From IMG/VR virus record IMGVR_UViG_3300044997_000618, positions 1-32,273 of that record: DNA of 32,273 nt; one strand, 5' to 3'. Source of the stretch: a virus. Below are positions 1-18,496 of this stretch, piece by piece. Each line of letters opens with the position of its first letter. Positions within the stretch are counted from its first letter, which is position 1. A program made the translations under genes and the position numbers. Below the pieces are notes generated by a model. The model was given only the letters and a program-made list of their open reading frames with translations, ran no database searches and was not told the DNA's origin.

Positions 1-284
1 TCATTGACTGCAAATGCGCCATGACAAAACCCTACTATGGGTTTGTTTTTTAACTCAGCTATTTCGTACAGCTTGTTTTCAGTTAGATTACGTGCCACTG
101 AATCATTGCCGCCAGTGAGTATCAAACAATCAAACTCAATGTCTTTCCATGCCCAGTTAGGTATGTTGGGTGCCACTGTGATTTCATGCCCTGCTAATAC
201 ATGATACCAAGCACGTTCTAAGCAATCTTGAACAAAGAAAAATGGGGGGAACTTGCGTTCTTGTTGTGTGACTAATAGTTTCAT
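1..284 (-). CDS. Class I glutamine amidotransferase-like protein (partial, cut at left edge)
   Basis: The minus-strand frame opens with ATG at 284 (MKLLVTQQERKF) and runs off the left edge without a stop, so only the first 94 residues are seen. The end of the visible part reads LTGGNDSVARNL and then PIVGFCHGAFAVN. This resembles the GG.D loop and nucleophile elbow (G-x-C-x-G) of class I glutamine amidotransferases of the peptidase C26 / gamma-glutamyl-GABA hydrolase type; the Cys would be the nucleophile. The His-Glu part of the triad lies outside the window. It follows the ferritin-like gene behind a terminator. Family level is likely; the substrate is unknown. Confidence 0.6.
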   Translation of the reverse strand, partial: MKLLVTQQERKFPPFFFVQDCLERAWYHVLAGHEITVAPNIPNWAWKDIEFDCLILTGGNDSVARNLTENKLYEIAELKNKPIVGFCHGAFAVN

Positions 285-347: not shown

Positions 348-1094
348 TTACCACTGTACGTGGCAAAGCTCACGGTGTGGTTCACCGTAGGCATCACGCA
401 TGATTTGCTTGACTTCTTCAGAAGCTGTTTTGAAATCACCTAATGATGTGCATGAGCACTCAAATAGATCCCAAATCATTTCTTGTACATAAGACAATGC
501 TTCTGCTTGTGCTTCTTCAGTTACACAGATTTTTTCAAGCATTTTACGGCCGATTTGTGCGTGGAACTTTTCGTCACGAGCAACGCGAGCATAACGGCTT
601 TGAATAAACTCATCGCCTGCACACTCAGCCATGGTAGCCCAAACGTGGCTAGCACGACCTTCTGCCATGAACTGATACAAGTGCATCATGATTGGATTGT
701 CATGAGCTTCGTATTTCTGGATCAAGCTAGCACCCATACGAATGTCAACTTTACCGTAGTTTTCCCAAATCTTTTCTAGGTCTGGCTTTTCACCTGTTAT
801 GTGTTCAAGAATTTCGTGAACAATACGGAAGTGTTCAGCTTCATCCCATGCTTGCTTGGCCAACAAACGTGCATCGTTGGGATCTGTCAAAGCTGGTAGC
901 TCAGACACTTTCTTAGAAAGCTCGATCATGTTCATACGCTCATTGCTGAGACGGATGTGGAAGAAGTTTGCTAGTTGTGCTTTGTCGCCCTTGGCATTGT
1001 CAAAGAACTGACGTGTTTGGATTTCAGCCACTTTGTGAAGTGGTTTGAAACTTTCCCATAGTTCATCTAAGAACTGATTTACTGGCTTTGTCAT
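348..1094 (-). CDS. Ferritin-like di-iron four-helix-bundle protein
   Basis: The 248-residue protein is all-helical in character and carries the two-repeat di-iron carboxylate pattern: a Glu in SNERMNM followed by ExxH in DEAEHFRIV, then a Glu in FMAEGRASH followed by ExxH in RDEKFHAQIG. This is the ferritin-like superfamily arrangement, which binds two irons for O2 activation, iron handling or oxidation. The subfamily (oxygenase-like or rubrerythrin-like) cannot be fixed by eye. There is no signal peptide, so it should be cytoplasmic. The start is supported by AAGGAAA upstream. A T4-type late box TATAAATA lies 45 bp upstream and a strong terminator follows, so it looks like a single-gene late transcript, divergent from phoH. 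Confidence 0.72.
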   Translation of the reverse strand: MTKPVNQFLDELWESFKPLHKVAEIQTRQFFDNAKGDKAQLANFFHIRLSNERMNMIELSKKVSELPALTDPNDARLLAKQAWDEAEHFRIVHEILEHITGEKPDLEKIWENYGKVDIRMGASLIQKYEAHDNPIMMHLYQFMAEGRASHVWATMAECAGDEFIQSRYARVARDEKFHAQIGRKMLEKICVTEEAQAEALSYVQEMIWDLFECSCTSLGDFKTASEEVKQIMRDAYGEPHRELCHVQW

Positions 1095-1263: not shown

Positions 1264-1282
1264 TTTGCGTGAGGTAGCGCAC

Positions 1283-2032
1283 ATGTTCAAAGGAGAATTG
1301 ACATTGAGTAGAGCAAGAGGGGCCAAGGCCCAAAAACGCATTCACGCACAAGAAAACACCATCAACTTCAATCAAGCATTAAAACAAGCTCGGCACGTAA
1401 ACCTTGTGCCAAAAACCCGCAATCAAGAACAACTCATTTTTAACCTGTTAGATCCCGACCAACACATAGTGGTGGCCGTAGGTCCTGCTGGAACGGGCAA
1501 GACCTATCTAGCCATGCAAGCGGCTATCAAGGCTCTCAAACAAGGTCAATGCGAAAGGATTGTTCTAACCCGTCCTGCGGTGGGTGTAGAAGATGAGCGT
1601 CATGGATTCCTGCCCGGAGATTTGATCTCAAAAATGGAGCCTTGGACCAGACCCTTGTTGGATGTGTTACGCGAACACTACAGCCCTCGAGACATACTCA
1701 GAATGATGGACGATCAGATCATAGAAATCTCCCCCTTAGCCTACATGCGGGGACGTACTTTCAAATCTAGTTGGATCATTGCTGATGAGATGCAAAATGC
1801 TACTCCTGGACAAATGAAAATGCTGTTGAGCCGCATTGGCAGCGGTTCAAAGATAGTGGTTACCGGAGACGTTGAACAGACCGATCGTGCAAAAAATGAT
1901 AATGGCCTACTAGATCTTGTAGAAAGACTGAAAGCGCAAAACGCAAATGGCCTATGTGTTAGTTACCTAGGCAAGCGGGACATTCAACGTCATCCTATCA
2001 TCGATACTGTACTAAGCTTGTACAGCACCTAA
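1283..2032 (+). CDS. phoH: PhoH-like P-loop ATPase
   Basis: The product has a PhoH core: Walker A GPAGTGKT at residues about 67-74, the motif LTRPAVGVEDERHGFLPG, and a Walker B region with ADEMQNATPGQMKMLLSRIG followed by VVTGDVEQTD. PhoH proteins are cytoplasmic nucleotide-binding enzymes, often encoded by marine and freshwater T4-like phages; their role in infection is unsettled (phosphate stress or RNA metabolism have been proposed). The frame is open from a TTG at 1265. ATG 1283 with GAGG eight bases upstream is preferred, and TTG 1304 behind AAGGAG is an alternative. It is the only clear plus-strand gene in the window and ends in its own terminator. Confidence 0.93.
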   Translation: MFKGELTLSRARGAKAQKRIHAQENTINFNQALKQARHVNLVPKTRNQEQLIFNLLDPDQHIVVAVGPAGTGKTYLAMQAAIKALKQGQCERIVLTRPAVGVEDERHGFLPGDLISKMEPWTRPLLDVLREHYSPRDILRMMDDQIIEISPLAYMRGRTFKSSWIIADEMQNATPGQMKMLLSRIGSGSKIVVTGDVEQTDRAKNDNGLLDLVERLKAQNANGLCVSYLGKRDIQRHPIIDTVLSLYST

Positions 2033-2033
2033 C

Positions 2034-2063
2034 AACAGCACCTTTGGGTGCTGTTTTATTTTT
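2034..2063. terminator. Intrinsic terminator between convergent phoH and Bug receptor genes
   Basis: A 9-bp stem (AACAGCACC / GGTGCTGTT) with a short loop is followed on the plus strand by TTATTTTT. It begins just after the phoH stop and ends next to the stop of the convergent minus-strand gene at 2065, so it may serve both. Confidence 0.78.
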
Positions 2064-2064
2064 G

Positions 2065-3051
2065 TTATTTGTTATTGATTTGTCTGAGGATGTTATCAAC
2101 CAAAGGCTGGTATTGTCGTTCCAACTGGCGTATGTGTGTTCCAAACGCTTGTGAGTTCTGTAGAGAAGGCTCTTCCTGAAAAAGATTGTTTTCGAAAATA
2201 GTTCTTACCTCATCAGATTGCAGTGCTTTGTTAAACTCGGTTTGATACCAGGTCACTGCTTCAGGTGGTGTATTCTTGTGCAACATCAATCCCCAACCAG
2301 CAGGAACATCAAACCCAGCCACCACTGAACTAATGGGTTGAACGCCGGGCATCTGTGCCAATGCTCGAGAACTCAACGCTACTACTTTGACACGCCCGTC
2401 TTTATAGAAAGCATAGGCCACCGACGACGGAACAATGCCAAAACGTACATGCCCGCCGGCAACATCTTGTAGAGTATCAACTGGTCCTTTGTGCTCTACT
2501 CGCACAACGCCATCTTTGCCCTGCGGAAACTTTGTTTTTTGTGCTAGCATTTCAAATACTAGTCGAGCACCGCCCGACACACTGACTGAGACTTTTTCTT
2601 TCTTCAGTGCATTGACAAGTTGTTCAGGAGTGTTTATCGGATCCTTGGGATGCGCAATAAACACAAAGTTAGAGCTGGCAGCCAACAACGGATACACAAA
2701 GGTATCAGTGGTATAAGTGCGATTGTTAGTGTCCGGCACTGCTACCTTATCCATGGCAGTGATTCCCGGTACTGATACCATGGTCACCGAGTGGCCATCT
2801 GCTGGTAGCTTACTAAAATATTCTGTGCCCACAACTCCGCCGGCACCTGGCTTATTGTTGATGATAAACTTGACGCCAGGATTGTTGGCTTCAACTTGTT
2901 TGGCTAACACACGGAAAATAATCTCATTGGCCGACCCTGGGGTCCAAGCCATTACAGCTTCCACAGGTTTGGTAGGTTGCCATGCTTGCGCCACTGCTGA
3001 TGTTGCGACACCAACAGCAATCAACGAGGATAAAATAATCTTTTTGAACAT
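2065..3051 (-). CDS. Tripartite tricarboxylate transporter receptor (Bug/TctC family), periplasmic
   Basis: The 328-residue product starts with a classic signal peptide (two Lys, hydrophobic core, cleavage near AVAQA|WQP). The mature protein has Bug-family hallmarks: PTKPVEAVMAWTPGSANEI, then NNKPGAGGVVGTEY and LPADGHSVTMVSVPG. The length matches the family (about 320). Bug/TctC proteins capture carboxylates or other small organic solutes in the periplasm for TctAB membrane permeases, which are not encoded here, so a phage-encoded copy would need host permeases. It converges on phoH. The next gene upstream, an HAD phosphatase, is only 23 bp away, so it may share that transcript. The family call is firm; the solute is unknown. 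Confidence 0.9.
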   Translation of the reverse strand: MFKKIILSSLIAVGVATSAVAQAWQPTKPVEAVMAWTPGSANEIIFRVLAKQVEANNPGVKFIINNKPGAGGVVGTEYFSKLPADGHSVTMVSVPGITAMDKVAVPDTNNRTYTTDTFVYPLLAASSNFVFIAHPKDPINTPEQLVNALKKEKVSVSVSGGARLVFEMLAQKTKFPQGKDGVVRVEHKGPVDTLQDVAGGHVRFGIVPSSVAYAFYKDGRVKVVALSSRALAQMPGVQPISSVVAGFDVPAGWGLMLHKNTPPEAVTWYQTEFNKALQSDEVRTIFENNLFQEEPSLQNSQAFGTHIRQLERQYQPLVDNILRQINNK

Positions 3052-3074
3052 GCGTTTCTCCTATGATTTGTTCG

Positions 3075-3677
3075 TTAATTAGTTAGCTGATGATAAACAT
3101 CACGCCAGTTTTTTACTAGAGTGATTCCTTCGTGATAATAATGCATGTTATGACCATGTTCCATCAGTAGAGGCTTCAATCCAGCACGATATCCAGCTTC
3201 GGCATTTTCGGGCTTGTCTTCTACCCACCAGCACCCTGTGCCTTCGTATTCTTCCAAGGCTTCGTCTTTGTAGGCACCAAGATCCAAACAAACAATGCGT
3301 TCGAACGCCGTGGGTCCAAACAGTTTATGCAAGTTCATCTCACGTAGTTTTTGTGCGTTTGGATCCAAGCTCAGGCTGGTAATGCAGTGAAATCTATAAT
3401 TCAACTCTTCGTGCAGTCGTTTGACATAGTACATGGAATCTCGCAGAGCAGGCAAGAATCCAATGGCTGCCGACTCATTGAAAATACGAATCAGTTTTCT
3501 AACTTGTTCTCTAGGTATGCCGTAGCGCAAGGCCATGTCATAGCTGAGTTTTGAGCTAGGAACTTCTTCAAACCCATGTTCTTGCATCCATACATTAAAC
3601 GCCCACTCCCAATCTAACAATACACCATCTGCATCAACTAGGATCAGTTTGTTGAGGTTTTTCCACCGTGACTTCAT
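3075..3677 (-). CDS. HAD-superfamily phosphatase (phage type)
   Basis: Motif I is LILVDADGVLLDW (nucleophile Asp and acid Asp two apart). A Thr/Ser motif II candidate is in CITSLSLDP, and a late acidic motif in WWVEDKPENAEAG binds Mg2+. These define a small haloacid-dehalogenase-type phosphatase of about 200 residues, as found in other T4-like phages; nucleotides are a plausible substrate but that is inference. The frame also has an ATG at 3683; ATG 3677 has better spacing to AAGGA. The start overlaps the preceding gene by about 44 bp, implying translational coupling downstream of the clamp-loader gene. Confidence 0.8.
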   Translation of the reverse strand: MKSRWKNLNKLILVDADGVLLDWEWAFNVWMQEHGFEEVPSSKLSYDMALRYGIPREQVRKLIRIFNESAAIGFLPALRDSMYYVKRLHEELNYRFHCITSLSLDPNAQKLREMNLHKLFGPTAFERIVCLDLGAYKDEALEEYEGTGCWWVEDKPENAEAGYRAGLKPLLMEHGHNMHYYHEGITLVKNWRDVYHQLTN

Positions 3678-3924
3678 AGCCATTTTCCTTGAACAATCGT
3701 TCTATAATGTTTGGATAGTGCTGGTGATAAAAACTTGAGATTTTTTGGAAATCTCTAGGAACCACTACACCACCCATACTAGATTTTACTACAGAACAGG
3801 TTTTGAAGTCAAGTATTACGGACGCTGATTGAATGTCCCTAGTACGAACTCGTTTGCTTACTTCGGTGCATTCGTTTACTTTGCCATCAGGACGAGTGAT
3901 ATAGGTAACAATGAAATATCTCAT
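3634..3924 (-). CDS. Conserved hypothetical phage protein
   Basis: A 96-residue protein (MRYFIVTYITRPDGKVNE...) with no domain I can name. Its ATG overlaps the clamp-loader stop (ATGA), and its 3' end overlaps the HAD gene, so the three form a tight translational unit. Its position right after gp44 is where T4 keeps gp62, but it is about half the length of gp62 and I see no resemblance. Confidence 0.75.
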   Translation of the reverse strand: MRYFIVTYITRPDGKVNECTEVSKRVRTRDIQSASVILDFKTCSVVKSSMGGVVVPRDFQKISSFYHQHYPNIIERLFKENGYEVTVEKPQQTDPS

Positions 3925-4838
3925 AGATTGGACAGTTCAATCAGTGTTGCTGAAAGATTGATTTCTTGATCTGCTACCAATGGCACATTGGCCAAGCCAT
4001 TGCGGATTATGACAATGGCTTGATCTTGTTTGTGGATGTCTTGACTCCAAAGATTGATATTGTCATACATCCAACGGAATATTTCTTCCATTTCTTCTGG
4101 GCGGGCACTTGCACACATTAACTTCCGGGCGTCTGTGATCCGGCCAGCCTTGAACAAGTTTACTACATCAAGTTTCCACTCTTTGATACCGCCTTCGTCG
4201 CCATGTGGTGCTGTAAGCTGTCCTTCTTGGCTGTTCATCTGACACATGTTCAAACACTTGCGCATGTCTGGATAAGCGGCCTTGACGTATGTGTCCAACG
4301 TGTCTAGATCAAACTCTACGGCCTCCGACACGAGCACAGTAGCCATGCGAGCAGTAAACTCTGTGACATCCACACGCTCAATGTGAAATCCTTGACACCT
4401 ACTGTGTAGAGCAGGTATAACACGATTGGGATAGTTACAAGTAAGAATAAATCTAGCACTAGCGTGATAAGTTTCCATAACCCCGCGAAGCGCGGCCTGT
4501 CCGTTGGGACTGATGTAATCTGCTTCATCTAATAGTACCACCTTAAATGTGCCGTAGGGCATGGTTTGAACAAAACCTGTGATCTTGTCACGAATGGTGT
4601 CTACAGAGTTTTCACGGCTAGCGTTGATCTCCAACACATCATAGTCGTCCACGCCCAGTTGATTGATCAAGATCTTTGCTAGAGTGGTCTTGCCCACTCC
4701 TGGTGCGCCCGAGAACAACAAGTGTGGGATTGATTTGCCTTTGATCCAGCCTTCTACTTGTTGTCGTTGTGACTCATCGCGAAACACGTATCCATCAATG
4801 TCACGTGGACGATATTTTTCAGTCCAAAGTTCTTTCAT
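3921..4838 (-). CDS. 44: Sliding-clamp loader large subunit (T4 gp44-like AAA+ ATPase)
   Basis: The 305-residue product begins MKELWTEKYRPRDIDGY, the usual clamp-loader opening. It then has Walker A GAPGVGKT (residues 44-51), Walker B VVLLDEAD (100-107), sensor 1 ILTCN (131-135) and an SRC arginine-finger motif (147-149). Clamp loaders use ATP to place the processivity clamp on primed DNA. The frame is open further upstream, but ATG 4838 is preferred: GGAAGG sits just before it and it overlaps the upstream stop (ATGA). No clamp (gp45) or small subunit (gp62) is recognisable in the window. Confidence 0.95.
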   Translation of the reverse strand: MKELWTEKYRPRDIDGYVFRDESQRQQVEGWIKGKSIPHLLFSGAPGVGKTTLAKILINQLGVDDYDVLEINASRENSVDTIRDKITGFVQTMPYGTFKVVLLDEADYISPNGQAALRGVMETYHASARFILTCNYPNRVIPALHSRCQGFHIERVDVTEFTARMATVLVSEAVEFDLDTLDTYVKAAYPDMRKCLNMCQMNSQEGQLTAPHGDEGGIKEWKLDVVNLFKAGRITDARKLMCASARPEEMEEIFRWMYDNINLWSQDIHKQDQAIVIIRNGLANVPLVADQEINLSATLIELSNL

Positions 4839-5041
4839 TCTGCCCTTCCAGAAGTGCAACTGTTGCCCCAAAGCGCCTGTGCCTGTTGTTGATATTCATC
4901 CAACTCATATTCACTAAGTTTAACACGATATGCTTCTTCTGTCAAGGCATGCCATCCTATGCATTTGCCCGTTGGGCTACGTCCACATCCACATGCGGCA
5001 CCACCTTGTTTAATCTTATCTGCTTGTATCTGCATCTTCAT
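4835..5041 (-). CDS. CDGSH-like iron-sulfur mini-protein
   Basis: A 68-residue protein whose centre reads CGCGRSPTGKCIGWH. The spacing C-x-C-x2-S-x4-C-x2-[W]-H parallels the CDGSH signature (C-x-C-x2-S/T-x3-P-x-C-D-G-x-H), which binds a [2Fe-2S] cluster through three Cys and one His. It is one residue shorter between the second and third Cys, and Asp-Gly is replaced by Ile-Gly. Short proteins with this pattern occur in bacteria and phages. It ends in an ATGA overlap with the clamp-loader start, so the two are probably co-translated. The role is unknown. Confidence 0.65.
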   Translation of the reverse strand: MKMQIQADKIKQGGAACGCGRSPTGKCIGWHALTEEAYRVKLSEYELDEYQQQAQALWGNSCTSGRAE

Positions 5042-9767: not shown

Positions 9768-12713
9768 CTATGGGGTACTCTGGTTTATCCAGTTGACCTC
9801 TTCAGGTACAGAGTTTACCCAAGGCACGGTGTTGCCCACATTGTTGAGCCAAGAAACAATGGCCGGTGGTTGTGGCACAGGTGCCGGGCTAGGCGGAGCA
9901 CCGCCCAGGATGTTGATCTTGGGATACAACAGATACTTGTTGTAAACGTCTGTGAGCCCATAGTTGTCTTCGGGCACAATAAATACAGTGCTGCCGCCAT
10001 CAAATATTGTCTGTTGGCCAGCAGGTTCAGGTATCAAGCTCCATGTCACTCGGCTCAATCCCACAGTGGGTGTGAGTGGCAAATACAGTTCAGTGTCTTT
10101 AAACAAGTTACCGCGTGTGACCAACAGTGCATCGTAGGTCACATAGGTATCAATCAAGGTAAATGACACGTAGGTATCATCTACTACAGTCATTCTGTAT
10201 AGTCCCAGGCGATCAGTATCGTTGGTGATCGCTGAGCTGGGGTCCAACGTAGTGTCATCAAACTCCAGTTGATCATAGGTGCTAGACCAGTTGGTCCATG
10301 CTTCAGCGTCAGTCTGTCCAAGATAGTCTTCTTGCTTTTGAAAGATCACTGTGCGATTGTTGAGCTGGCGTCCATTGTCTCCGTCAATGCCGCCCAGAGC
10401 CGCAATGCGATCCAGGGTTTGGTTGTTTACAGCACTGAAACTCAACTGAGTGGCATAATCCACTGTGCCACGCAACACAATGTTGCTGGGTCTGTCAACA
10501 CGATCAAATGTGGTAGCCTGTGCTGGACTTGGGATCCACTCTTTGATCACTGGATCCCAGTAATGGCTGTACTGTCGATCCAGGATGTAACGATCGGCGG
10601 TAAAATCAACCAAGTTCAAACGCTCGCCCCAACGAGTGCGTATGTTATAGGCCAGCTGTTCACCTTTGCCAGGTTCACAGTAGGCCACAATGAATGCACG
10701 AGTAAAGCCCAGCACACGTCCATTGGCCTGTTTAGATGTCATCCACAGCGGCAACACTTCTGAATACTGCCCCACTGTGTCAATGACCTGATCGCGCATC
10801 TCAATCAAGCTGTTGGGATACACTTCTGTCACAGTTTCGCCATCATATCCAAATGGAAAAGCCACGGACACTGACTGTGGTGGGCTTTCGCCGCGCTTGT
10901 TTACTCCCGAATCCTGCACTTCACTGTATACCACTTCGTATACAACATTGCCGGTATTGCCCAGGCGTGCCTGTGCTACTTTGATTTCGCCCAGTACCAA
11001 TGGCTTGCGGAAGTGATTGAGCTCCAAGGCTGTGACATAGTCTTCCAGACTGGAACTGGTCAATCCAAACGCATGCTGATAGATCACGTTTTTGGCCACA
11101 CCAAAGTAAGGATCGTCGGGTCTGTAGATAAAGCTGGGCTGTATGATGTCTTGATCCTGCAACAAACTGTTGACCAAGGCGCGATCCGCTTCGCCAGGCA
11201 TGGCCTGTATGTAAAGACTTTCATAGGGTTCGTTGTATTTGCGGTTGACTCTGATACGGAAAGTCTTGAACACTGAAATCAAGCCGTCAATGCTGTAGGC
11301 ATTACCAGTGAATGTGAATGTAGAGTCAAATGTGGTTTCATCAGTGCCCAGACGTGTGGCTCGTTGTGCGTCAAAAGTAGTGGCTCCACTATCTATGGCA
11401 AAGGTATTGAAACTCACACGACCAGCAAGGTTACCCGATGGCAACAGTTGCAGTCCTTGAGGCAGTTTGTTGTACACACCTGGCACATAGTTTCTGTTCA
11501 AGCCTGCGCCTGGCTTGAGACGATAGAACAGTTGACGGCCTGAAGTATTGATCGCTTCAATCTGGAAAATGCTGACCGCGCCGTTGTTGATGATGCCTAA
11601 ATCTGTAGGAGTGATCCAGGTCACTTCTGTTTCCACGTCGCCAATGATTGTGATAGTGTAGGGATAGGGTGGTGAAATCAGCTGTGGATTATCTTTTTTG
11701 TACACATAGATAACAAAGTTAAACTCTGTTTCTGTGGCGCCTTGATTGGGCAAATACCCATACAACCATCCTGTGGTCGAGTTCAAGGTCAGTCCAGGAG
11801 GCAGGTCCGCTGAGTCCCCGGTAGCTATTTCCCACTCTACTTGATCACCATCCAGATCAATGGCCTGTAACTGATAGGCAAAAAAGTTTGAGTGACGATA
11901 CAACCCGATGTTTCCATCGGGCGGATAGTTTGCAACAAAAGGCGTGCGCTGTGGCAACACGTCTGCGGTGATTTGATTGTTGTCTGCTGTAAAGTCTGTG
12001 GTATCTGCTATCAAGCTGTCTTTGCTGACCACAAACATAGTATAGGTTCTCTGATTACGATCTTTGCCGTCAGATATCTGTAGAGTAAACTGATAGTTTT
12101 TGCTGATACTGCGCGAAGAAAAATCAAAGGGAAACTGATCAAAGGTAGTGCCTGCACGATCAAATCCTGCAACAGCAGTATCGGGCAAGGGTGTGGCAGG
12201 AGTGATAAATCCTGTGATCAATCCAGTGGTAGTGATTGACGTGCCTGGCGGCAGTTCGCCGTCCTCTAAGGTAATCACGACTTTGTCACCCGGATCTTGA
12301 TCAGTGAACTCAATCTGATAATCCACAGTGTCTCCGTCGTAGAACAGTCCAATACTGCCGGCCGGAGTCACAAACTCTGGTAGATCCTGTCCTGTCACTG
12401 TGAGTTGGAAGGTTCGGTCAGCGATACGTGTGAGCCCATTGAGACCTTCACTGTAGGCACGGATGGCAAATCGAGAAGTGACGTTTTCAGATACTTCGGC
12501 GGGCACACCACGCACAGTAGAAAACGCCAGCGGAACTCCTTCAACAACACCATTGGTTTTGACTTGGATACCTTCGGGCAAGGTCCCTGCAATCAGTCTA
12601 TATTTGACCATGCCGCCGTCAGGATCCACTGCAATCACCGGTGTGGTGAAAAACAGTCCTTCGGCTACAGTGCCTAGATTACCAGCAGGAGTTAGCCATT
12701 GCGGTTGTGCCAT
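9768..12713 (-). CDS. Large virion protein with Ig/cadherin-like repeats
   Basis: A 981-residue protein. The first 440 residues contain four repeats that open W(L/I)TPAG.(L/I)G or equivalent, pass through (V/I)D.DG..V.(Y/W) and end LP.G(L/I)...(T/S)G...G (about residues 6-61, 115-170, 262-322, 365-432). This is the putative-Ig/cadherin-like pattern of surface proteins. The middle (about 440-820) is less repetitive. The C-terminus is Pro/Trp/Asn-rich (VSWLNNVGNTVPWVNSVPEE). It has no signal peptide, which fits an intracellularly assembled virion part such as a fibre or baseplate appendage, possibly binding host glycans; that role is inference. Confidence 0.78.
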   Translation of the reverse strand: MAQPQWLTPAGNLGTVAEGLFFTTPVIAVDPDGGMVKYRLIAGTLPEGIQVKTNGVVEGVPLAFSTVRGVPAEVSENVTSRFAIRAYSEGLNGLTRIADRTFQLTVTGQDLPEFVTPAGSIGLFYDGDTVDYQIEFTDQDPGDKVVITLEDGELPPGTSITTTGLITGFITPATPLPDTAVAGFDRAGTTFDQFPFDFSSRSISKNYQFTLQISDGKDRNQRTYTMFVVSKDSLIADTTDFTADNNQITADVLPQRTPFVANYPPDGNIGLYRHSNFFAYQLQAIDLDGDQVEWEIATGDSADLPPGLTLNSTTGWLYGYLPNQGATETEFNFVIYVYKKDNPQLISPPYPYTITIIGDVETEVTWITPTDLGIINNGAVSIFQIEAINTSGRQLFYRLKPGAGLNRNYVPGVYNKLPQGLQLLPSGNLAGRVSFNTFAIDSGATTFDAQRATRLGTDETTFDSTFTFTGNAYSIDGLISVFKTFRIRVNRKYNEPYESLYIQAMPGEADRALVNSLLQDQDIIQPSFIYRPDDPYFGVAKNVIYQHAFGLTSSSLEDYVTALELNHFRKPLVLGEIKVAQARLGNTGNVVYEVVYSEVQDSGVNKRGESPPQSVSVAFPFGYDGETVTEVYPNSLIEMRDQVIDTVGQYSEVLPLWMTSKQANGRVLGFTRAFIVAYCEPGKGEQLAYNIRTRWGERLNLVDFTADRYILDRQYSHYWDPVIKEWIPSPAQATTFDRVDRPSNIVLRGTVDYATQLSFSAVNNQTLDRIAALGGIDGDNGRQLNNRTVIFQKQEDYLGQTDAEAWTNWSSTYDQLEFDDTTLDPSSAITNDTDRLGLYRMTVVDDTYVSFTLIDTYVTYDALLVTRGNLFKDTELYLPLTPTVGLSRVTWSLIPEPAGQQTIFDGGSTVFIVPEDNYGLTDVYNKYLLYPKINILGGAPPSPAPVPQPPAIVSWLNNVGNTVPWVNSVPEEVNWINQSTP

Positions 12714-13585: not shown

Positions 13586-13909
13586 CTAGGAAGGTGAGAA
13601 ACTTGACCCGCAGCCGCAGGTTGTTTGTGCGTTGGGGTTCTTGATAACAAAGCTAGATCCCATGACATCTTCTCTGTAGTCTATTTCAGCGCCTTGCAAA
13701 TAGCCCCAACTCATGCTATCTACCAAGATTTTTATACCATCGTATTCGAGATCAAAGTCATCTTCGTTGTGTACTTCATCCAGTGTAAAACCGTATTGCA
13801 TGCCCGAACAACCGCCGCCCTGTACAAATACACGCAGTTTAAGAGCAGGATTGTTTTCTTCTGCCAGTATGTCTCGTATTTTCACAACAGCCGAGTCTTT
13901 TACTTGCAT
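13586..13909 (-). CDS. erpA: ErpA-like A-type iron-sulfur carrier
   Basis: The 107-residue product aligns by eye with bacterial ErpA over its whole length: [44 protein letters not shown] and [15 protein letters not shown]. The three cluster-binding cysteines are present (C34, C98, C100). A-type carriers accept [2Fe-2S]/[4Fe-4S] clusters from IscU-like scaffolds and deliver them to apo-enzymes in the cytoplasm. The ATG overlaps the SOD stop (TGATG), so the two are translationally coupled. Fe-S carriers of this family are known in some T4-like phages of oligotrophic bacteria. Confidence 0.93.
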
Positions 13910-14489: not shown

Positions 14490-14708
14490 TTAGCGGCGTC
14501 TTGTGATGCGTCCTTTGGTTATATCATAGGGGCTGAACTCGATTTCTACTCTATCGCCCATGAGTATTTTGATATTGTTCACGCGTATCTTGCCGGATAT
14601 GATACCTATCACGGGCTGAGATTGTCCGTCTACTTGTACTCTAAACATGGCATTGGGCAGTACATCAACCACAGTGCCTTCCATACGGAAGCCTTCTTCT
14701 TTAGGCAA
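14490..14708 (-). CDS. infA: Translation initiation factor IF-1
   Basis: With a TTG start the protein is 72 residues, the length of E. coli IF-1, and aligns from its first residues (M-x-K-E-x4-M-x-G-TV). The OB-fold core is clear: [15 protein letters not shown], then [18 protein letters not shown] and [16 protein letters not shown]-1 binds the 30S A site with IF-2 and IF-3 during initiation. ATG 14684 behind AGAAGG would give a 64-residue form lacking the first eight residues. It overlaps the upstream gene by 8 bp. A phage-borne copy is unusual; it may tune initiation on phage mRNAs, which is inference. Confidence 0.93.
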
Positions 14709-15953: not shown

Positions 15954-16712
15954 TCATATGCGATTGTTTCTTTTTAAAAATTCAAACAAGATTTTATGTG
16001 CTTCTCTGTTAGGATGCGCTCCGTCAGGATAAAACAAGTCTGGACGTTGGGCAAATGTTTCATATCTCCGCTGTCCTTTATCTACTTCATCCAAAATAGA
16101 TTGCATCTGTGATATGTCTGTGACATGCTGTTTGAACAGTTTTAAAAAATCTTCTCCTCGGTGATCCGCTGAGAAAAATGAATAAACAGGATTCTTTACA
16201 ATGTCGTAGTCGTTGAGTAAAAGATTGATCATGCTCTGGCAGATGACCTCTACGCCAGTATAGATAGTTTTAAAATCCTCGATCATCAGAGCATCACTGC
16301 ACCCGCCAATGACTTTTATGTTGATATTCCACTCTTGACTCAGAGCCGATAGATCAAAATAGAATCGAGAAATAATTCTGTGCATCAACTCCGTGGGTCG
16401 ATCGTAATAGTTTTTATCCTCAGGATCCATATATAGAAAATCTCTAGTCCATTCGGTTTGAAAAACTATAATCTGTTTATTTTTAAACAATCTCAGATGA
16501 TGATTATTGAATAACAGATTCCTTGCACGTAGATAGGATTCTCTGTTTGAAGACCCACCTAGTCCAACATTTATAGCTACGTGTCCATCTTCATGCAGGT
16601 ACTCTGTTAGTCCACCATGCAGTATCATAGGTGTACCATTGTTGGGGAGCCACTCTCCCACACTCCAACTGTCGCCGGCGATTATTGTGACTTTTTTATC
16701 GCTGATGTTCAT
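15954..16712 (-). CDS. SGNH/GDSL-family hydrolase, copy 2
   Basis: A 252-residue protein with the SGNH blocks: IIAGDSWSVGEW (nucleophile Ser), GLGGSSNRESY (Gly/Asn oxyanion region), IIVFQTEWTRD and the catalytic Asp-x-x-His in FYPDGAHPNR near the end. Such enzymes are esterases or acyl/acetyl hydrolases acting on lipids or polysaccharides. No signal peptide is seen, so it would act inside the cell or on the virion. It is clearly paralogous to the gene immediately upstream, overlapping it by 17 bp. No good Shine-Dalgarno is seen, suggesting translational coupling. The substrate is unknown. Confidence 0.82.
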   Translation of the reverse strand: MNISDKKVTIIAGDSWSVGEWLPNNGTPMILHGGLTEYLHEDGHVAINVGLGGSSNRESYLRARNLLFNNHHLRLFKNKQIIVFQTEWTRDFLYMDPEDKNYYDRPTELMHRIISRFYFDLSALSQEWNINIKVIGGCSDALMIEDFKTIYTGVEVICQSMINLLLNDYDIVKNPVYSFFSADHRGEDFLKLFKQHVTDISQMQSILDEVDKGQRRYETFAQRPDLFYPDGAHPNREAHKILFEFLKRNNRI

Positions 16713-17448
16713 TGAGACAATCTTGTTTTAAAAAATCGTATAAAATACGGATTCCTTTGCGGTTAGGATGTACACCATCGGGGTAAAAAAAATCAGGATG
16801 CTCTCTCATCAATATTTCTCGGCGAAAGCCTTGATCAATCAATGTCAATAACTTTTCTTTGCTGGCAATGTCGTTGATCCTTGATTTGATTTCTTTGACC
16901 AGTTCTTCAGATCGTTGCTCATACAAAGAGAACACAGGATTATTTGTTTGGTGCGTTTCATTGACGATCAAGTTTATCATGCTCTGGCATACTATGTTAC
17001 AGCCAGGATAGTGTTCTTCGATATTATCAAACCATAAAGTATCGCTGACACCACCAATGATATAAATTTTACAGTTGGACTTTTGCGCTACATCGCTGAG
17101 ATTTCTGTAAAATCTTGATATCCATCGCATGGCAATGTCTTCGGGATCTGAAATCTCCTTCCAATCTTGTGCGTCGAGTTGATTTTCCCAGCCAGTTGAA
17201 TGCTTGTAATCTCTACTGTACTCTGTTTGAAAAACAAACACAGCATCAATGTCGTGGGTGGCATTTCGTCTGAAATAGGTATCTATGCGTTGATAGATAT
17301 CATGATTTGATATGCCTTTGTCACTGAAGTTTGACACCCGATGCCCATCTTCTGTGAGATACTGCTCTAGACCACGATGAGGATTGTGAGTGCAATCCTT
17401 GTCCCATTCACCGCACCCCCAACTGTCGCCTACTATTAAAAAGTTCAT
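16696..17448 (-). CDS. SGNH/GDSL-family hydrolase, copy 1
   Basis: A 250-residue protein with LIVGDSWGCGEW, FSDKGISNHDIY, VFVFQTEYSRD, YIIGGVSDTLW, QSMINLIVNE and a terminal FYPDGVHPNR, i.e. nucleophile Ser and Asp-His of the SGNH triad. It shares block order, length and many residues with the next gene (SRFY..LS, NPV.S, YPDG.HPNR), so the pair is a tandem duplication that has diverged. The start ATG 17448 has GGAG eight bases upstream. Likely an intracellular or virion-associated carbohydrate esterase; the substrate is unknown. Confidence 0.82.
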   Translation of the reverse strand: MNFLIVGDSWGCGEWDKDCTHNPHRGLEQYLTEDGHRVSNFSDKGISNHDIYQRIDTYFRRNATHDIDAVFVFQTEYSRDYKHSTGWENQLDAQDWKEISDPEDIAMRWISRFYRNLSDVAQKSNCKIYIIGGVSDTLWFDNIEEHYPGCNIVCQSMINLIVNETHQTNNPVFSLYEQRSEELVKEIKSRINDIASKEKLLTLIDQGFRREILMREHPDFFYPDGVHPNRKGIRILYDFLKQDCLNEHQR

Positions 17449-17624: not shown

Positions 17625-17831
17625 TTATATTTTACGTTGGCAACTAAAGCTGTCAGATTCAAAACGGAAAGCATTGGCGTATTTGCAGTCCCATACCACG
17701 TCCTGACCTTTCATGTGCCAACCAAAGGAGTATCCTGCAAGCAAACAAGCCAACATCAACAACAACTTGGGCGATGCTTTGGCCCATTTTTCACTGATTG
17801 CTTGCCACTCTTCTGGTGTAAACCAAATCAA
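17625..17831 (-). CDS. Small single-pass membrane protein
   Basis: A 68-residue protein with one hydrophobic segment (SPKLLLMLACLLAGYSFGW, about residues 20-38) after an amphipathic N-terminus, and a polar C-terminal tail with two Cys. Its ATG overlaps the BI-1 stop (ATGA), so it is co-translated with that membrane protein and may act with it at the inner membrane. No named family. Confidence 0.65.
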   Translation of the reverse strand: MIWFTPEEWQAISEKWAKASPKLLLMLACLLAGYSFGWHMKGQDVVWDCKYANAFRFESDSFSCQRKI

Positions 17832-18496
17832 CGTCTATCTCCAATCAACTGTAACAGCGAAATAAAGATGTTAATAAAGTTAATGTACAGGCTCAGTGCG
17901 GCAAACCATTGCATACGTCTAACTTCACTTTCAGACGCACCCCAGAACATGTCGCGAATACGATTCATGTCATAGGCGGTGAGTCCTAGAAAAATAAGGA
18001 TGGTCAACACATTTAGTGTCATTTGCAGTGCAGTGGACGCTACAAAGATGTTAACAACACCTGCAATAATCAAGCCAACCACACCGGCAAACAAGAACGG
18101 TCCCCAACCTGAAATATCTTTCTTTGTAAAGTACCCCCAACCAGCCAAGGCACCAAAGCTCACAGTGGTTCCAATCAAGGCTTGTGCAATACTAGCTGAT
18201 GTATACACAGCAAAGATCACACTCAAGCTCAAGCCCATGGCACCGGCAAAGGCAAAATACCATGCTTTGATGGCACCCTCGGAAAAACTGTTACCCTTCC
18301 AGGCCAAGAACAAACTCATGATCAAAGGTGCAAAAATAATGACGTAACCTAGTAGGCCAGAAAACAACACAGGCACTAGGCCTAGAGAGTTGATCAGCGC
18401 GGCAAATACTAGTGTGGCAAACACACCTGCGGTCATACGACCCAGGACTCCGGCCACTGCGGTGTTGAGACTTTCAACTGCTGATAATGTTGTCAT
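17828..18496 (-). CDS. Bax inhibitor-1/YccA-family membrane protein
   Basis: A 222-residue polytopic protein with about seven hydrophobic segments and the TMBIM signatures: an early VFATLVFAALINSLG helix, GWGYFTKKDISGWGPFLFAG between helices, and a late LTAYDMNRIRDMFW followed by LSLYINFINIFISLL. Bacterial members (YccA, YbhL) sit in the inner membrane; YccA inhibits FtsH, and others act as pH-gated Ca2+ leak channels. In a phage it might protect phage proteins from FtsH or delay membrane damage; this is inference. Start supported by AAGGAG. It probably shares a transcript with the histone-like gene just upstream. Confidence 0.9.
   Translation of the reverse strand: MTTLSAVESLNTAVAGVLGRMTAGVFATLVFAALINSLGLVPVLFSGLLGYVIIFAPLIMSLFLAWKGNSFSEGAIKAWYFAFAGAMGLSLSVIFAVYTSASIAQALIGTTVSFGALAGWGYFTKKDISGWGPFLFAGVVGLIIAGVVNIFVASTALQMTLNVLTILIFLGLTAYDMNRIRDMFWGASESEVRRMQWFAALSLYINFINIFISLLQLIGDRR

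Follow-up and report, generated by a model that had tools for sequence, protein, structure and literature searches.

The locus described here raises the question of why a phage should carry a gene for a solute-binding protein of the TTT/Bug family next to phoH, and with which permease, if any, its product would work. The window, i.e. the whole stretch of DNA that was analysed, is an IMG/VR virus record of 32,273 bases. Its relatives reach about 350 kb (largest contig 353 kb), and because the window is so much shorter it is probably a genome fragment. The following features are needed for the argument (positions in the window):

3-284, minus strand: class-I glutamine-amidotransferase-like gene, cut by the window edge
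348-1094, minus strand: gene of the orf348 family, found near tctC in some other phages
1265-2032, plus strand: phoH (PF02562, E 9e-68)
2034-2055, plus strand: intrinsic terminator-like hairpin between the convergent phoH and tctC
2065-3051, minus strand: tctC, orphan TTT/Bug solute-binding protein of phage group 1, 328 aa (Pfam, fold, tree)
2911-2940, minus strand: first ligand loop PGSANEIIFR, residues 38-47, with Glu43 replacing the Asp of Bug proteins (alignment; motif from PMC5812351)
2983-3051, minus strand: putative Sec signal peptide, residues 1-23, cleavage after AQA (direct reading)
3058-3062, minus strand (coordinates read on the plus strand): Shine-Dalgarno-like AGGAG, 6 nt before the ATG of tctC
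3075-3683, minus strand: phrog_420 gene, function not assigned (PHROGs match), directly upstream of tctC
3921-4871, minus strand: DNA polymerase clamp loader (phrog_168, E 4e-75), upstream of tctC

The tctC gene, its product and its setting

The tctC reading frame is intact, starts with ATG and lies on the minus strand. As the initial annotation had stated, it lies between phoH and the replication block; the latter is a leftward block with the phrog_420 gene and the clamp loader. The convergent phoH and tctC are separated by 32 bp, and only 23 bp lie between tctC and the phrog_420 gene. Since this gene and the clamp loader are located upstream on the same strand, tctC looks like the final gene of a leftward replication operon. 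Judged by the clamp loader, the closest named phages are PA5oct-like jumbo phages (55%), and the carriers of the tctC clade appear from their sequences to be jumbo phages that are distant kin of PA5oct.

Several other genes of the window deserve mention. A homologue of the orf348 family gave a weak PaaA/PaaC diiron match. Host-like genes encode an IscA-type Fe-S protein (13586-13909), the translation initiation factor IF-1 (14490-14708) and a Bax1-I membrane protein (17828-18496). An adjacent pair of GDSL/SGNH-like hydrolase genes (15954-16712 and 16696-17448) is below the Pfam cut-off; SGNH-like genes recur elsewhere close to phage TctC genes. A protein of 981 aa (9768-12713) has a putative Ig (He_PIG) domain, and a part of it is similar to proteins that carry a protease annotation in jumbo phages of Agrobacterium and Sinorhizobium.

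The product of tctC matches the Pfam family TctC (PF03401) with an E-value of 4.5e-23 and 82.6 bits, where the cut-off is 27. Read directly rather than with a predictor, the N-terminus (MFKKIILSSLIAVGVATSAVAQA, followed by WQP) has the pattern of a Sec-type signal peptide, including an A-x-A site, and A-x-A followed by W[QE]P was seen in most of 29 aligned relatives. An AlphaFold2 model, for which 29 phage proteins served as input, reached a pLDDT of 91.7 and a pTM of 0.86, with low pLDDT at the N-terminus. In a fold comparison of this model, the nearest solved structure was Bug27 (Z 36.2, rmsd 1.9, 289 residues aligned), followed by MatC (Z 34.6) and BugD (Z 34.2), and other binding-protein families were far below (Z about 17). 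The best BFVD match was a protein of an uncultured Caudovirales phage annotated as PBP2_Bug_TTT, with 29% identity. We are confident that the modelled product has the two-domain Bug fold, and the view that this gene encodes a complete receptor of the Bug/TctC family is borne out.

The ligand loop, on the other hand, is altered. The loop signature of Bug proteins, P-F-x-A-G-G-x-x-D, is almost ubiquitous, though not universal (PMC5812351), whereas the window protein reads A-W-T-P-G-S-A-N-E. We therefore assign the product to a divergent clade of phage homologues of TctC and do not call it a canonical Bug protein. At position 43, all 34 bacterial proteins compared have Asp, whereas 88 of the 89 group-1 proteins have Glu and the remaining one has a gap; N42, F46, G189-P190, P208 and W253 are fixed or nearly so in group 1. 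A His near residue 162, present in 87 of 89 group-1 proteins, is missing from the window protein. Taken with the changes of Asp to Glu and Gly to Ser in the loop, this suggests that the window protein may lack the binding mode of Bug proteins. A comparison of pocket residues brought out the loop differences (E43, N42, F46), but gave no clear sign that the contact residues reported for TphC and Bug27 are conserved, and assigning a ligand from pocket residues was given up for this reason.

A phage-only clade and the slot beside phoH

Scans of viral contigs with phoH and the clamp loader yielded 160 phage loci, the largest contig being 353 kb long. These scans and those based on alignments were productive, while a scan with the window TctC as a single sequence came back empty, its patterns being too specific. 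TctC proteins of the window type (group 1) are present in many of the 160 loci, with 29-36% identity. A profile scan of IMG/VR matched 274 stretches, which is not a count of phages, since IMG/VR may hold some host-derived contigs and one phage can yield several; the best matches had 36-37% identity and 217 bits. The best protein from Pseudomonadota reached 103 bits and 29% (398 genomes, at most five candidates scored in each), which contradicts the idea that all of the closest relatives are chromosomal. With a leave-one-out profile of the phage proteins, the score was 259 bits for the window protein and 145 bits for the best protein from bacteria.

In a tree, the window protein and 27 phage proteins were split from the 22 nearest bacterial TctCs with a support of 100/100, and a broader tree of 104 rows agrees (clade support 100 SH-aLRT), the bacterial side of both being sampled from Pseudomonadota only. 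Within the sampled sequences, the window tctC thus appears to belong to a phage-only clade, though its position within the clade is unsure because its branch is long (1.5). In INPHARED, no match was found for the window protein and no close homologue for group 1, another group-1 protein having a sole distant match at 21%; PHROGs gave no match for the window TctC either. The initial annotation had also taken the gene as a sign of a Burkholderiales-type host. The data do not support this: the named bacterial matches were Alphaproteobacteria (in a pattern-limited search), the phage clade stands apart from the bacterial ones, and alpha- and betaproteobacteria alike have expanded sets of the family.

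Purifying selection appears to act in the group-1 clade: the median NG86 dN/dS was 0.088 over 33 pairs of group-1 relatives, on which it was taken as the window protein is too divergent for this method. The GC content of the window tctC is 0.464, compared with 0.447 for the window, and its codon use is typical of the phage. On its sequence context, tctC can be classed as a candidate auxiliary metabolic gene of phages: it is a metabolic gene of host type, is surrounded by phage genes and is conserved among phages.

The site that tctC occupies between phoH and the phrog_420 gene differs from phage to phage. In L002-L007, the loci nearest to the window by phoH, the phrog_420 gene follows phoH after about 15 bp and the slot is empty; these nearest phages are without a group-1 TctC. 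In L008 the same slot holds a TctC, a TctA and two neighbour families, in L051 a TctC and a PP-loop-like gene, and in L077 a TctC, and most of the other occupied slots hold other genes. The slot therefore seems open to insertions in general, and TTT genes from different subfamilies have entered it. A group-1 TctC is found 3.6-9.6 kb from phoH, and so within 10 kb, in all 14 large phage records that carry one, records for which phoH itself had been the query. The link between the two genes is not universal, as many contigs matched in the TctC profile scan lack a phoH within 6 kb.

The empty slot in the nearest phages with an intact slot might hint at an assembly chimera or at a recently captured host gene that is not under selection. 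However, the proteins closest to the window protein are those of phages, the clade is phage-only among the sampled proteins, TctC or TctA genes occupy the same slot in L008, L051 and L077, and the codon use of tctC is typical of the phage. We regard a chimera or such a capture as highly improbable, and the available sequences make a recent acquisition from a host unlikely.

Permease genes and recurring neighbours

A profile search of the 32-kb window for TctA gave no match. Searching 50 related records over their whole length, we found TctC in 28 (one to three copies each) and TctA in 14, usually beside a divergent TctC; TctB above the cut-off was found in none of the 50. The carriers of TctA include G001, G003, G006 and G007, which are near the window by phoH. 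A further scan of IMG/VR gave 477 TctA-like stretches, to which the caution on counts of stretches applies equally, and a TctC was adjacent at 71 of the best 80 loci, so that TTT transport would be a trait of such phages. No group-1 TctC adjoined TctA (0 of 89), and only two of 25 records carried both (Fisher p 0.0036, ignoring kinship). The initial description of the gene as lacking its TctAB permease is thus borne out in part: as regards TctA it agrees with the window and largely with group 1, but not with the lineage, in which close relatives encode TctA. By these counts the window-type TctC appears to be an orphan in the phage lineage. No complete TctABC transporter was found, a statement that applies to the fragment and the group and not to the whole genome of the phage.

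Operons with TctA and a divergent TctC of about 350 aa occur in L008 (10772-15311), L212, L213, L219, L220 and L221. In varying combination, they also contain a sulfotransferase-fold protein, a dioxygenase-like protein and DUF6552, and TctB above the cut-off was not found in them. A PstS-like binding protein (PBP_like_2; L211:8455-9459) is encoded near TctA in G003, a close relative of the window.

We favour the view, with a probability of roughly 0.55, that the tctC product is a phage-supplied periplasmic binding protein for TTT-type uptake during infection, the permease being most often that of the host. From the fold to the function we infer throughout. The protein would be made together with the replication genes and exported via the Sec system of the host, and it would bind a small solute, probably one bearing a carboxylate, by its altered pocket. 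The solute would then be handed to a permease of the TctA type, in most cases that of the host, and the infected cell might thereby gain a compound useful for phage production. That host permeases are used is plausible, since bacteria often have orphan Bug proteins and most of their TTT binding proteins are orphans (PMC5812351, PMC5994714, PMC8556258). A TctAB in the host is presumed.

Since close relatives encode TctA, the permease may also lie on the phage genome outside the 32-kb fragment. The tctC product would then belong to a transporter without a canonical TctB, for which DUF6552 might stand in. The presence of TctA in the 14 related records and in the slot of L008, the lack of TctB from all 50 records and the location of DUF6552 near several TctA/TctC loci are consistent with this. 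However, the phage TctA has a divergent TctC of its own alongside at 71 of 80 loci, group 1 is never adjacent to it and rarely shares a record with it, and DUF6552, for which the part of TctB substitute is a candidate role on its gene context, is also found far from TTT genes. A phage permease as the partner of the window protein therefore seems rather unlikely to us.

The neighbours of 126 distinct phage TctC genes were also compared. The methyltransferase-like family F1 was near 83 of these genes, F2 near 75 and F3 near 57; a PP-loop-like family was near 20, TctA near 16, the amidotransferase near 15 and DUF6552 near nine. F1 and F3 were placed mainly by motif with weak Pfam matches and F2 by fold only: the fold of the F2 model resembles that of sulfotransferases (Z 11.5 to tyrosylprotein sulfotransferase, with 167 aligned and an rmsd of 3.7), and F3 shows an HxD...H...R pattern as is typical of Fe/2-oxoglutarate dioxygenases. 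When the PDB was searched by sequence with the profiles of F1, F2, F3 and the PP-loop family, nothing significant was found. None of these four families nor DUF6552 was found in the window, and they are hence context and not part of the window system. A family of about 390-420 aa with a PP-loop-like SGGxDS motif is located beside many phage TctC genes outside group 1 (L051:910-2082, L223:3912-5141, L227:3576-4847 and L229:2932-4116).

Such enzymes, together with the orphan status of the group-1 TctC, could speak for a role other than transport, e.g. sensing, as proposed for orphan Bug proteins (PMC5994714, PMC5812351), sequestering, delivery to a host sensor, or modification of surfaces or metabolites with the methyltransferase-like, sulfotransferase-fold and dioxygenase-like neighbours. 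But the window fragment has none of these neighbours, they are common to orphan-TctC loci and TctA/TctC loci, which points back to transport, and in L009 F1 to F3 lie near phoH without a TctC. We consider a non-transport role rather unlikely as well, but count it, like the phage permease, as a serious rival. A wider idea, which we put forward tentatively, is that jumbo phages run a TTT branch of their own, in which a phage-specific TctC clade and a TctA without canonical TctB, possibly with DUF6552, are coupled to the recurring enzymes (methyltransferase-like, sulfotransferase-fold, dioxygenase-like, amidotransferase) that would process the imported compound.

Comparison with known systems

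The known cases of nutrient uptake encoded by phages are mainly those of phosphate-binding proteins. The PstS proteins of marine phages are orphan periplasmic binding proteins that are thought to use the permease of the host. They belong to an ABC-transporter family and have phosphate as ligand, and are thus of a different binding-protein family from the window TctC. With TTT binding proteins forming a widespread phage-only clade, and with TctA in the same lineage, the import of organic solutes would become a regular part of jumbo-phage infection, and the group-1 TctC offers a concrete protein family for testing ligand and uptake.

In the open literature, outside of which most subscription journals and preprints lie, the only viral TTT component that we found is a tctA domain match on viral contigs from SUP05 single cells, listed as a putative auxiliary metabolic gene (PMC4164917). 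Here, too, a TTT component is encoded on a viral contig, but the SUP05 case concerns a permease domain only, in a single mention that states its role as unknown. Transporters are not mentioned in the main text of two surveys of jumbo or huge phages. The UniProt proteins with a 'PBP2_Bug_TTT domain' from uncultured Caudovirales phages (A0A6J5T247) are also phage-encoded and share the fold, with 29% identity. Such entries are database annotations, and in the open literature found the clade, the orphan pattern, the TctA partners and the neighbours are undescribed.

The closest known counterparts are the bacterial Bug/TctC proteins of PF03401 (Bug27, 2QPQ; BugD, 2F5X; MatC, 6HKE; TphC, 7NDS). The window protein resembles them in fold over the mature length (Z 29-36), in length, in its apparent export signal and in the usual orphan state without adjacent membrane genes. 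It differs from these four by an identity of only 18-22%, its place in a separate clade, the loop described above and the residues N42, E43, F46, P190, P208 and W253.
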